Made by a program: the position numbers and the translations under genes. 38,409 bases of DNA. It comes from a virus. Of this stretch, positions 5,131 to 8,499 are shown piece by piece. The stretch lies in IMG/VR virus record IMGVR_UViG_3300038307_000159, positions 1-38,409 of that record; one strand, written 5' to 3'. Each line of letters opens with the position of its first letter. Position 1 is the first letter of the stretch. The notes under the pieces were generated by a model. It was not told the origin of the DNA. It made no database searches and was given only the letters and a program-made list of their open reading frames with translations.

Positions 5131-5910
5131 TTAATTATGCAATCTTTCTCTATTTTCCTTAATTCGCTTTCTACCTATTTCACAATACTCAGCTTCTTGT
5201 TCAATACATATCCAGTTTCGTTTAAGGTTGTCGCAAGCCACAGCTGTTGTAAATGAGCCAGCACAATTATCCAAAACTAAATCTCCTTCGTTGGTATAAG
5301 TCTTAATTAGGTATTCCATCAGGGCTACTGGTTTTTGGGTTGGGTGAAGTTTTCCTTTCTGTGAAGCATTACTGATTTTTATTTCTTGGTCAGGGTAAAA
5401 ATCAGTGTACTCACCACCAGTAGCCTTTAGAGTCCCATATACTTGGTTTCCGTCACCTTTATATACTTTATCTCTCGGCTTATCTTTTCTTACTCTTCCT
5501 CTATCCTCCATTTGAGGTTTATATAAACATTGATTACTATAAAAAATCATTATATCTTCATATTTTCGTAAAGGTTGTTTTTTTGCATTTAAATGCCCAG
5601 TAGCTTTTACTTTATTCCACAACCAAGAATACTTAAACATCTTAGGATTACTCATCACCAAAGCACTTGTAAAGGGTTGTGAAGCTGTCAGAACTATTGC
5701 TCCGTTATCCTTGATTATCCTTTTGTATTGTTCCCATAATGGCTCAAAAGGTATTACAGTATCCCATTTGCAAGCAGTAGTTCCGTATAGTTAAGGAAGG
5801 TCTGCCAAAATCATATCAACTGATTTATCAGCGATATTTTTCATTTCAACAAGGCATTCTCCTTGTATCAATTCAAATTTTGGCAAACCTTCATTTGTTT
5901 TGTTTATCAT
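5131..5910 (-). pseudogene. N4/N6 DNA methyltransferase interrupted by an in-frame stop at its catalytic motif
   Basis: Reading from the ATG at 5910, codons 1-39 give the N-terminus of a beta-class DNA methyltransferase ending in ADLP. Codon 40 is TAA and 41 is CTA, after which the same frame resumes with YGTTACKWD. Deleting the six bases TAACTA would restore the catalytic DLPY motif. The rest is intact: HPTQKPVALMEYLI and the SAM motif VLDNCAGSFTTAV near the end. The start overlaps the HNH stop as ATGA. Either the enzyme is dead, or a fragment is made from an internal start around 5661, or the stop is bypassed. Confidence 0.75.
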
Positions 5911-6389
5911 AAATAATATTGTATTTTTAATTTCATCTTATTCCACTCGACCTGTGGAATATCTACTTTCGCTCTGTTCTCTAACCAAGATACAAACTGT
6001 AAGTTATCTAATAAAAGTGTTCCGCCATTCGCTTTTGCTTCAATATGGTCAAGCGATGGTTTAATCCATTTATTTTTTGTTTTAGTCCACTCATTAAATA
6101 AATCATTAAACTTCTTATCTTTATAGAACTTTTCAATAAACTGCTTGTATATTTCTGTGGTAAATCCTTCGTAATCTCTCTTTCTTTTTATTGAGGCATT
6201 GAGAAATTTTAATTTTTCAATATCTGTAAAACTATCTAACCATTCAAGCGACACATCATACTTCAAGTGAGCTTTCATATTCTTTAGGTTGTGGTCTCGG
6301 CTCATTTTTTTACCCTCTGACCAAACCTTTCTACCCTTACACGCTTTACTTATATTTTCTCTATGTGTTTTTGTAAATACTCTTTTCAT
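5907..6389 (-). CDS. HNH homing endonuclease inserted by a methyltransferase gene
   Basis: This 160-aa protein has an N-terminal NUMOD3-like basic segment (THRENISKACKGRKVW) and a C-terminal HNH core SLDHIEAKANGGTLLLDNL, followed by SWLENRAK. It lies between two copies of a methyltransferase N-terminus that both break straight after the codons for DLP. This suggests that those conserved codons are its target. Its stop overlaps the downstream methyltransferase start (ATGA). It is a selfish mobile gene by family. Confidence 0.82.
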   Translation of the reverse strand: MKRVFTKTHRENISKACKGRKVWSEGKKMSRDHNLKNMKAHLKYDVSLEWLDSFTDIEKLKFLNASIKRKRDYEGFTTEIYKQFIEKFYKDKKFNDLFNEWTKTKNKWIKPSLDHIEAKANGGTLLLDNLQFVSWLENRAKVDIPQVEWNKMKLKIQYYL

Positions 6390-6416
6390 ACCATAAGTCT
6401 ACCATACTACTTGCTG

Positions 6417-6509
6417 TTATGCAACTGGTAAGTCACATAAAATCATATCTATAGACTTATCTGGTATATTCTGCATTTCTTTTAAGCATTCTCCTTGAAT
6501 TAGTTTCAT
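6417..6509 (-). pseudogene. methyltransferase N-terminal fragment (second copy)
   Basis: From the ATG at 6509, 28 codons read KLIQGECLKEMQNIPDKS and onward to CDLP, followed by two unrelated codons and TAA. About 20 of 27 residues match the N-terminus of the gene starting at 5910. It ends at exactly the same point, just before the tyrosine of the DLPY motif. It looks like the 5' remnant of a methyltransferase gene split by the HNH element, or a duplicated N-terminus. Confidence 0.65.
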
Positions 6510-6862: not shown

Positions 6863-7178
6863 CTTTATAGTTGTTAATAATCTTATCTAATTACGCTTTT
6901 AGCTTCAACACAGTATCTTTAAACATATCTTTAAGCTGTGGCACACCTTCTAATAAGAGTTTTTCTTCATTACTCATATATTTTATATTCTCTAGATGAT
7001 TTCTCCACCGCTCCTCATCTTTCACAATAGATACATAGAAGCTGGGGTTGATTATTCCTCTTCTTACCATTACAGGGTTTTTACCGACAATTCCTTTTAA
7101 GATGTTCGGTAGTTCATCAGCGTCAATCTGTATGTTGTCTCCTCTACTCATTATTATTTTATAGGGTTTGTTTTGCAT
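6863..7178 (-). repeat. direct repeat copy A flanking the C5 methyltransferase module
   Basis: About 316 bp, from CTTTATAGTTGTTAATAATC through the whole 95-aa gene, is repeated at 8201-8499 in the same orientation at high identity. The region between is the methyltransferase plus three small genes. Confidence 0.75.
6891..7178 (-). CDS. duplicated protein of unknown function, copy A (95 aa)
   Basis: It encodes MQNKPYKIIMSRGDNIQIDA and is closely similar along its whole length to the protein at 8221-8499; the main difference is a short stretch near residues 66-76. No membrane segment or catalytic motif is seen. The compact pattern (IMSRGD, VRRGIINPSFYVSIV) looks like a small alpha/beta domain. 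It overlaps the end of the C5 methyltransferase gene by 25 bases. Function unknown. Confidence 0.7.
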   Translation of the reverse strand: MQNKPYKIIMSRGDNIQIDADELPNILKGIVGKNPVMVRRGIINPSFYVSIVKDEERWRNHLENIKYMSNEEKLLLEGVPQLKDMFKDTVLKLKA

Positions 7179-7786
7179 ATTGATTTTAATACGTGTAATC
7201 CCAATTCAGGACTGACACAATTTCTTAATACTTGTCTTTTGTTTTTTATTTTATACTCACTTAAATCATAACCATAGAGTTTTTGTAGGTCAGGTATTTG
7301 TGCGGTTCGTATCTTGTCCTTTGTGAATTCTTTGTCGGGTATGTCAAAATTAGACCAAAATAAATGTCGCTGTAACAACTTTCCTTCAATCAGGGGCTTG
7401 TAGTATGGTTTAACATTTTCCACAACCCACTTACCCTCAAAGTGGTGTTTTAAAAATAATATTTCTTCGTACAAAGTCATATCAGGATAAACTGGTTCTG
7501 TTCCTCTGTAACGGACACAGATGTTATGTCTAAATGATGAATGTGTCTGACAAGGTGGACTACTCCAAATAAAGTCAAACTCTTTATAATGTTCCAGTAG
7601 ATACTGATGTGCATCACCGACAACAACTTCGTCATTAGGAAAAATGTTCTGATATATCTTTGCAAGCACAGGGTCATTTTCAATAGCAGTTACTTTAAAC
7701 TGATTATCAATATCAAATAACTCTTTCCACTTTTTTCTATTTCCTCCTATTCCTGCGTATAAATTTAATATTTTAAATGTTTTCAT
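7154..7786 (-). CDS. C5-cytosine DNA methyltransferase
   Basis: Residues 7-16 LNLYAGIGGN form SAM motif I, PPCQ at 77-80 supplies the catalytic cysteine C79, ENV is at 123-125, RHLFWSNF follows, and NCVSPELGLHVL near the end is motif X. At 210 aa it is short for the family, with a minimal target-recognition region between motifs VIII and X. Phage versions usually protect DNA from restriction. It starts in an ATGA overlap with a small gene upstream. Confidence 0.9.
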   Translation of the reverse strand: MKTFKILNLYAGIGGNRKKWKELFDIDNQFKVTAIENDPVLAKIYQNIFPNDEVVVGDAHQYLLEHYKEFDFIWSSPPCQTHSSFRHNICVRYRGTEPVYPDMTLYEEILFLKHHFEGKWVVENVKPYYKPLIEGKLLQRHLFWSNFDIPDKEFTKDKIRTAQIPDLQKLYGYDLSEYKIKNKRQVLRNCVSPELGLHVLKSICKTNPIK

Positions 7787-8200: not shown

Positions 8201-8499
8201 CTTTATAGTTGTTAATAATCTTATGCTTTCAGCTTCAAAACAGTATCTTTGAACATATCTTTGAGCTGTGGCACTCCTGCAATCCTCAACTGCTTGTCAT
8301 ACTTAGTATTTTCTTTGAAATTTCTCCACCGCTCTTCATCTTTTACGATTGATACATAGAAGCTAGGGTTTATTATTCCTCTCCTTACTATCACAGGGTT
8401 CTTTTCAACAATTCCTTTTAAGACATTTGGTAGTTCATCAGCGTCAATCTGTATGTGGTCTCCTCTGCTCATTATTATTTTGTAGGGTTTGTTTTGCAT
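8201..8499 (-). repeat. direct repeat copy B flanking the C5 methyltransferase module
   Basis: Second copy of the ~300-bp repeat at 6863-7178, same orientation, with scattered substitutions and a short indel. Recombination between the copies would delete about 1.3 kb including the methyltransferase. Confidence 0.75.
8221..8499 (-). CDS. duplicated protein of unknown function, copy B (92 aa)
   Basis: A paralog of the 6891-7178 gene, sharing MQNKPYKIIMSRGD and the C-terminal GVPQLKDMFKDTVLKLKA. Differences are concentrated in the middle (KENTKYDKQLRIA). Both copies are intact, so both are probably used, or the duplication is recent. Function unknown. Confidence 0.7.
   Translation of the reverse strand: MQNKPYKIIMSRGDHIQIDADELPNVLKGIVEKNPVIVRRGIINPSFYVSIVKDEERWRNFKENTKYDKQLRIAGVPQLKDMFKDTVLKLKA

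Follow-up and report, generated by a model that had tools for sequence, protein, structure and literature searches.

The locus and the question it raises

How might a DNA methyltransferase be made from a gene whose catalytic motif is broken by a stop codon? This question is raised by a locus in a 38.4-kilobase (kb) viral record (IMGVR_UViG_3300038307_000159; hereafter the window, meaning the whole stretch of DNA analyzed), all parts of which lie on the minus strand (Table 1). Here, the left remnant of an interrupted methyltransferase gene (N1) is followed by a gene for an HNH homing endonuclease, a second methyltransferase N-terminus (N2) whose ATG overlaps the stop of the HNH gene (ATGA), a coding gap of 6 nucleotides (nt), and the remainder of the methyltransferase (C-part). 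Judged from the sequences, this is probably a mobile HNH element with a replacement N-terminus, combined with programmed ribosome bypass, as in mobA/gene 60 of phage T4 but over a far shorter gap; the bypass we infer from features that recur among related loci.

An earlier note on this DNA had stated that both N-termini end at DLP, that the HNH gene lies between them, that TAACTA with its in-frame TAA separates DLP from YGTT, and that the DLP of N1, if joined to position 5787, would restore DLPYGTT as well. These points are borne out in the window, the last of them as a feature of the sequence, with the refinement that the likeness of N1 to methyltransferases ends at DLP (6426) and its frame continues for two codons (V-A) before the stop. 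N1 matches phrog_67 (E-value 2.6e-8) and is 75% identical to N2 over 67 nt. The C-part is open for 218 amino acids (aa), is present in one copy in the record, shares 49-61% identity with its best 80 relatives, and holds the methylase domain itself (PF01555, E-value 1.2e-31); the motif DPPY would be complete only with bypass. As for the HNH protein, it matches phrog_1035 (E-value 1.3e-8), scores below the Pfam cut-off for PF01844 (14 versus 21.4 bits), and retains the D, H, and N of the HNH motif, which are invariant among its relatives. PF01844 is found in 27 of 33 such relatives and NUMOD3 in 16 of 33. Moreover, a promoter-like TTGnnn-17-TAnnnT lies upstream of the HNH gene in 14 of 32 loci, against 1.9 expected from shuffles.

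Gapped methyltransferase genes in related loci

The closest relative of the HNH protein (locus L082, 86% identity) is encoded within the same gene order, and there the gap reads TGA CTA where the window has TAA CTA, with the stop retained. A more distant one (L083, 50% identity) has DPPYG followed by TGA AAC and then GGA. Since these and other loci share the layout, a one-off decay in the window was rejected. Altogether, 55 distinct gapped loci, the window among them, were reached by three routes (HNH searches, a methyltransferase search, and gap patterns), with same-contig repeats and identical copies removed before the counts of 44, 55, 28, and 15 given below. Our first HNH profile matched 17 loci in viral records and 7 in genomes, and a broader profile matched 69 in viral records; of these 69, a gapped methyltransferase follows in 45 and an ungapped one in 8, and the remaining 16 loci either lack one within reach or themselves end too early. 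Among 80 methyltransferase loci picked by the C-part alone, five are gapped (L008, L010, L018, L022, and L043), and HNH relatives occur in 3 of these 5 versus none of the 75 ungapped ones. Two gap patterns lacking an HNH criterion gave truly gapped genes in 17 of 17 and 22 of 49 stretches; the other 27 of the 49 were dropped as intact-gene matches shifted against the motif. An HNH gene lies at most 1.5 kb upstream in 28 of the 39 gapped stretches found in this way. Of the rest, two (L113 and L139) begin where their contigs do, and four (L113, L114, L143, and L153) still show a readable tail of the HNH gene. The earlier note had held that the same arrangement in phages without any HNH gene would speak against its reading; such loci do occur, yet by loss, as these four tails still lie upstream.

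L106 (Konateibacter massiliensis, NZ_LT860099) and L216 place the layout, as GGT TAA GGA together with an HNH gene, in an isolate genome. Among cultured phages, the HNH gene was seen in no more than three records, which belong to two phages, H101 (L084) and VnaP (L085), both having HNH relatives beside methyltransferase remnants and no gapped gene; H101 carries another, intact methyltransferase upstream. A plasmid search found the HNH gene in no plasmid. Four distant HNH relatives (L227, L232, L237, and L238) lie between other phage genes with no methyltransferase of this kind nearby, and because of these the HNH family is, on present sequences, wider than the bypass elements.

Gap, stop, and landing codons

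To avoid bias from the patterns, gap counts were made on the 43 distinct gapped loci reached through HNH searches. A stop codon directly follows the take-off codon in all 43, and the gaps measure 4-11 nt. In the 15 loci with take-off at proline (Pro-type, including the window), every gap is 6 nt long and the landing codon is YYN throughout (CTT in 8, CTA in 2, and CTG, CCG, CCA, TCA, and TTA in 1 each), against a YY background of 0.19. Such a codon is able to pair with the proline anticodon NGG through C-G or U-G. The 28 loci with take-off at glycine (Gly-type) have gaps of 4-11 nt, and the landing codon is GGN in 22. Twelve of these gaps are not divisible by three, and in all 12 loci the frame is restored across the gap and the C-part is open for at least 200 codons. 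Take-off and landing codons are rarely identical, being mostly synonymous or wobble-compatible (CCT and CTA in the window). L133 is a matched case (CCG TGA CCA), and L110 an out-of-frame one (GGT TAA T GGA). L194 and L235 have gaps of 5 nt, and there the stop shares bases with the landing codon, GGC or GGA. L087 and L105, with take-off at TAT and 4-nt gaps, fall outside both the Pro-type and Gly-type counts.

An RNA stem ahead of the take-off codon

Overlooked in the earlier note was a long inverted repeat in the window, which folds in the messenger RNA (mRNA) into 17 pairs that extend to the first base of the take-off codon and encloses two smaller hairpins. Folding stability upstream of the gap has a mean z-score of -4.95 in 44 gapped loci versus -0.29 (lowest -2.6) in 69 intact methyltransferases. 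Likewise, at least 10 of the last 18 bases are paired at long range in 43 of the 44 gapped loci, as compared to 19 of the 69 intact genes, and with 11 later gapped loci, all of which pass the same pairing test, the count becomes 54 of 55. By z-score the stem is weak in L124 (-0.18), L010 (-1.22), L106 (0.25), and L235 (-1.97). The stem is missing (z-scores of -0.67 to 1.55) from 5 of 6 HNH neighbors that have no gap.

In the Pro-type alignment (21 loci), 27 pairs are predicted, 12 of them with changes on both sides, a count that none of 500 shuffles matched. Here, 90.0% of the cells are paired versus 80.3% in shuffles, and covariation is 0.391 versus 0.219, with none of 500 shuffles as high; sliding the arms by one base lowers pairing to 44-46%. 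In the Gly-type alignment (20 loci), the corresponding values are 93.4% versus 82.4% and 0.380 versus 0.183, though two-sided changes occur in just 3 pairs, an unremarkable number (115 of 500 shuffles). L106 was excluded from alignment A3. At several codons of DPPY(G), the third position covaries with the 5' arm, in pairs that were taken from each sequence's own fold and so are biased toward pairing. U-G pairs are frequent in the stem (14 of 20 rows at one position), and therefore it points to an RNA of the coding strand rather than to a DNA repeat.

Mobility of the element and selection on its parts

Pairs of loci reveal where the element ends. L150 and L088 share about 98% identity through the HNH gene and N2, with 95-100% in each 60-nt step between -660 and the take-off codon, and identity then falls to 82% in the following 60 nt. 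L129 and L142 match completely over the final 240 nt before the take-off codon and to 87% beyond it. Similarly, L112 and L113 have the same N2 (75 nt compared) and C-parts with 1.76 synonymous substitutions per site (dS) over 58 codons. Because near-identical elements sit in differing methyltransferase alleles, the HNH gene, N2, and the stop evidently travel jointly into them, with the right-hand border at the gap, and the sequences thus have the HNH gene spreading to allelic sites. One motif search found N1 remnants cut at DPP or DLP in 12 distinct gapped loci, and in several the HNH gene comes directly after the remnant, often behind a promoter-like sequence. In the sequences, the element is seated at the catalytic DPPY(G) codons, with an N1 remnant left of it in many loci. 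The proposal of HNH insertion at conserved DLPY codons, made in the earlier note, gains support from these recurrent cuts and from the near-identical elements in different alleles.

For N2, the median ratio of nonsynonymous to synonymous substitution (dN/dS) is 0.22 in the Pro-type (125 of 210 pairs, dS 0.3-1.6) and 0.21 in the Gly-type (31 of 210 pairs). Since N2 is under selection at the protein level and a 39-residue N-terminus would be of no evident use alone, this suggests that N2 is joined to the C-part. Between the window and L082, dS is 2.27 for the C-part, 0.63 for the HNH gene, and 0.70 for N2; with the first value above the other two, purifying selection on the C-part was rejected as proof of function after the insertion.

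Proposed mechanism and known bypass systems

We propose that the HNH enzyme cuts intact DPPY(G) sites and that ribosomes initiate N2 at the ATG overlapping the HNH stop. On arriving at the take-off codon (Pro or Gly), the ribosome would pause at the stop that follows, and the peptidyl-tRNA would release and re-pair 4-11 nt downstream (from CCT to CTA over TAACTA in the window), the outcome being a full-length methyltransferase. As the mRNA exits the ribosome, the long upstream stem might zip up and pull it forward, a step modeled on the one proposed for the 5' stem loop in T4 gene 60. The gap would also remove the cutting site of the HNH enzyme, and this would account for the retention of bypass. 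Such take-off and landing of the peptidyl-tRNA would explain together the stop, the frame, the landing rule, and the stem. What the earlier note mentioned as a possibility is, on these grounds, the best-supported reading, with gap, stop, a fitting landing codon, stem, and intact C-part recurring together; its view of enzyme loss as the simplest account finds no support in this co-occurrence, nor in the 12 of 28 Gly-type frames restored over gaps that are not multiples of three.

Bypass has so far been established in a single phage gene and in yeast mitochondria, and a 2011 paper in the Proceedings of the National Academy of Sciences reportedly dealt with mobA and the bypass sequence. As described in excerpts of a 2016 review (PMC5009743) and of a second article (PMC2988022), T4 mobA/gene 60 likewise involves a homing endonuclease insertion that splits an enzyme gene and a gap thought to protect from cleavage. 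In these accounts, gene 60 also shares with the present loci a stop directly after the take-off codon and a stem loop upstream of it, and its landing codon is matched, where those of the methyltransferase loci are matched or near-matched. The review (PMC5009743) terms the full pairing of this 5' stem loop, once it lies outside the exit channel, a 'motor', and states that shorter counterparts of gene 60 bypass had 'long been presumed' to exist. In contrast to the 50-nt gap of gene 60, gaps of 4-11 nt are too short to hold a stem, the methyltransferase stem is far longer, and take-off occurs at Pro as well as Gly. Further differences from mobA/gene 60 are the target, a DNA methyltransferase, the supply of a replacement N-terminus, and the dozens of natural variants. 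The gapped loci work like T4 mobA/gene 60 but stand apart from it as a variant, and were not filed as a member because two gene 60-type features, identical take-off and landing codons and a take-off stem loop including part of the long gap, were looked for and do not apply here. The N2 peptide of the window is also without KKYK, the nascent-peptide signal named for gene 60 in the same excerpts (PMC5009743), and another signal may serve.

Among other systems in these excerpts (PMC5009743), synthetic stop-hops in Escherichia coli have matched codons flanking a stop, 9 nt giving one amino acid, though they are test constructs, while the methyltransferase layout is natural, recurrent, and provided with a long upstream stem. 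In mitochondria of Magnusiomyces capitatus, inserts are skipped by ribosomes with codons imperfectly matched in several cases, but there bypassing is seemingly independent of mRNA context (PMC5009743), unlike the methyltransferase loci with their conserved stem. The tape measure gene of mycobacteriophage Corndog has an HNH gene adjoining an unusual start, for which its authors consider bypass (PMC4351075); yet this is a different gene, and an ACG start is also considered. Literature searches, in a library lacking most subscription papers and all preprints, turned up no account of bypass in any methyltransferase gene.

It is likely, if somewhat less so than bypass in itself, that these loci represent a general class of mobile elements in phage methyltransferase genes, with insertion made harmless by a new N-terminus and a 4-11-nt hop powered by a refolding stem, and that homing endonucleases targeting active-site codons commonly escape through bypass. 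If true, this would provide dozens of natural short bypass cases, varied in the size of the gap, in the stem, and in the codons used for take-off and stop, from which take-off and landing rules could be read and then tested with small reporters, and it would mean that a gene can survive the insertion of a homing endonuclease at one of its active-site codons.

Contrary evidence and alternative explanations

Several observations weigh against bypass. In the Gly-type set, 6 of 28 landing codons differ from GGN (AGC in 4, TGC and GTT in 1 each), and GGN before ACN may just be the recipient's own Gly codon, so that the Gly match is partly built in. In the window, CTA fits the CCT tRNA only via U-G at the middle position, and with 4-nt gaps a +1 frameshift could restore the frame too. 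Eight of the 53 HNH loci with a downstream methyltransferase have no gap (L195, L217, L218, L220, L221, L226, L230, and L231), for which reason the idea that every HNH-linked methyltransferase has one was rejected. L226 even has the stem (z-score -5.42) along with the HNH gene and no gap at its DPPYGTT site, and Konateibacter L106 is without a significant stem. The C-parts of L141 and L165 are broken, and purifying selection on the C-part may predate the insertion, its dS being far above those of the HNH gene and N2. Moreover, both gap-pattern scans demanded an intact start of the C-part, and related loci are not independent observations, hence no probability is given for the gap counts. L226 looks as though homologous exchange had replaced the gap region around DPPYGTT.

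That the methyltransferase is dead, the HNH element having destroyed the gene and the stop-gap being a scar or a block against re-cutting, we consider unlikely. The stop does sit within the catalytic motif, all that VnaP retains is an N-terminus of 40 aa with a C-terminal tail, and the broken C-parts and the possibly older selection on the C-part agree with such a loss. However, a dead gene needs no landing codon that fits the take-off tRNA, no frame restoration over gaps of 4, 5, 7, 8, 10, and 11 nt, no N2 under protein-level selection, and no stem with compensatory changes; moreover, the C-part is open for at least 200 codons or up to the contig end in 52 of the 55 loci, the exceptions being L141, L165, and L224, the last with 199 codons. 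Far less probable is that stop-codon readthrough or single-base frameshifting links both parts. Readthrough would give a continuous chain over the 39 of 55 gaps that are multiples of three, and a +1 shift might serve for those of 4 nt, but the former would insert 2-3 residues into DPPY(G), is unworkable for the other 16 gaps, and has to contend with all three stops (TAA in 13, TAG in 19, and TGA in 23 of the 55 loci), contrary to one dedicated suppressor, whereas the latter would demand shifts of differing size for gaps of 4 to 11 nt.

We give marginally less credit still to parts made separately and then assembled, for which there is a precedent in T4-like phages, where NrdA and DNA polymerase are split, with homing endonucleases or untranslated inserts, and functional (excerpts of PMC2988022). 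In the gapped loci, no start codon stands at the resume point, the first in-frame ATG, GTG, or TTG coming 8-43 codons into the C-part (43 in the window), past the conserved resume segment, and the break divides the catalytic motif itself. The least credible account is that a self-splicing intron, or other removal at the RNA level, joins N1 or N2 to the C-part. HNH genes are often located in introns, and the DLP of N1 would also join to YGTT, but only 36 nt lie between that DLP and the start of the HNH gene, and the remainder codes for N2. Rfam gave no group I or II intron core in the window or, at a lax threshold, between 4900 and 7000; in agreement with the earlier note, which saw no clear intron signals, splicing was rejected, as only a tRNA scored above gathering. 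An intein reading fails as well, there being no open frame through the insert, with stops after N1 and N2.

Features of the locus and neighboring genes

Table 1. Parts of the interrupted methyltransferase locus in the window, with take-off and landing codons as proposed here.
Feature	Position	Strand	Basis or remark
N1, left remnant of interrupted methyltransferase gene	6417..6509	-	reads MKLIQGECLKEMQNIPDKSIDMILCDLP, then V-A-stop
Promoter-like TTGCAT-17 nt-TAGACT	6396..6424	-	directly after DLP of N1, ahead of HNH gene
HNH homing endonuclease gene, 160 aa	5907..6389	-	phrog_1035 match, motif residues, Pfam domains of relatives
N2, replacement methyltransferase N-terminus carried by element	5791..5910	-	ends ...MILADLP-TAA
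Long RNA stem, 5' arm	5876..5892	-	inverted repeat and folding
Long RNA stem, 3' arm	5796..5812	-	overlaps ILADLP codons, reaches take-off codon
Putative take-off codon CCT (Pro)	5794..5796	-	comparison with other gapped loci
Coding gap TAA CTA: stop, then putative landing codon CTA	5788..5793	-	sequence; YYN landing codons of relatives
C-part, N6/N4 DNA methyltransferase	5131..5787	-	resumes at YGTTACKWD, intact to own stop

Just upstream of N1, a tRNA-like gene lies at 6604-6524 on the minus strand, scoring 42.2 bits with the Rfam tRNA model (gathering score 29), whereas ARAGORN finds no tRNA at this position. Its anticodon loop is enlarged and able to form a small hairpin. The DLP region of N1 (6442-6420) and the D-arm region of this gene (6594-6572) show 78% complementarity; folding of the stretch with both segments is only modestly stable (z-score -2.12), and the complementarity may be due to chance. 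Further along, two paralogous genes of unknown function (6891-7178 and 8221-8499) share 85% identity over 212 nt, and between them is a short DNA-methyltransferase-like gene with a PCQ motif (7154-7786).
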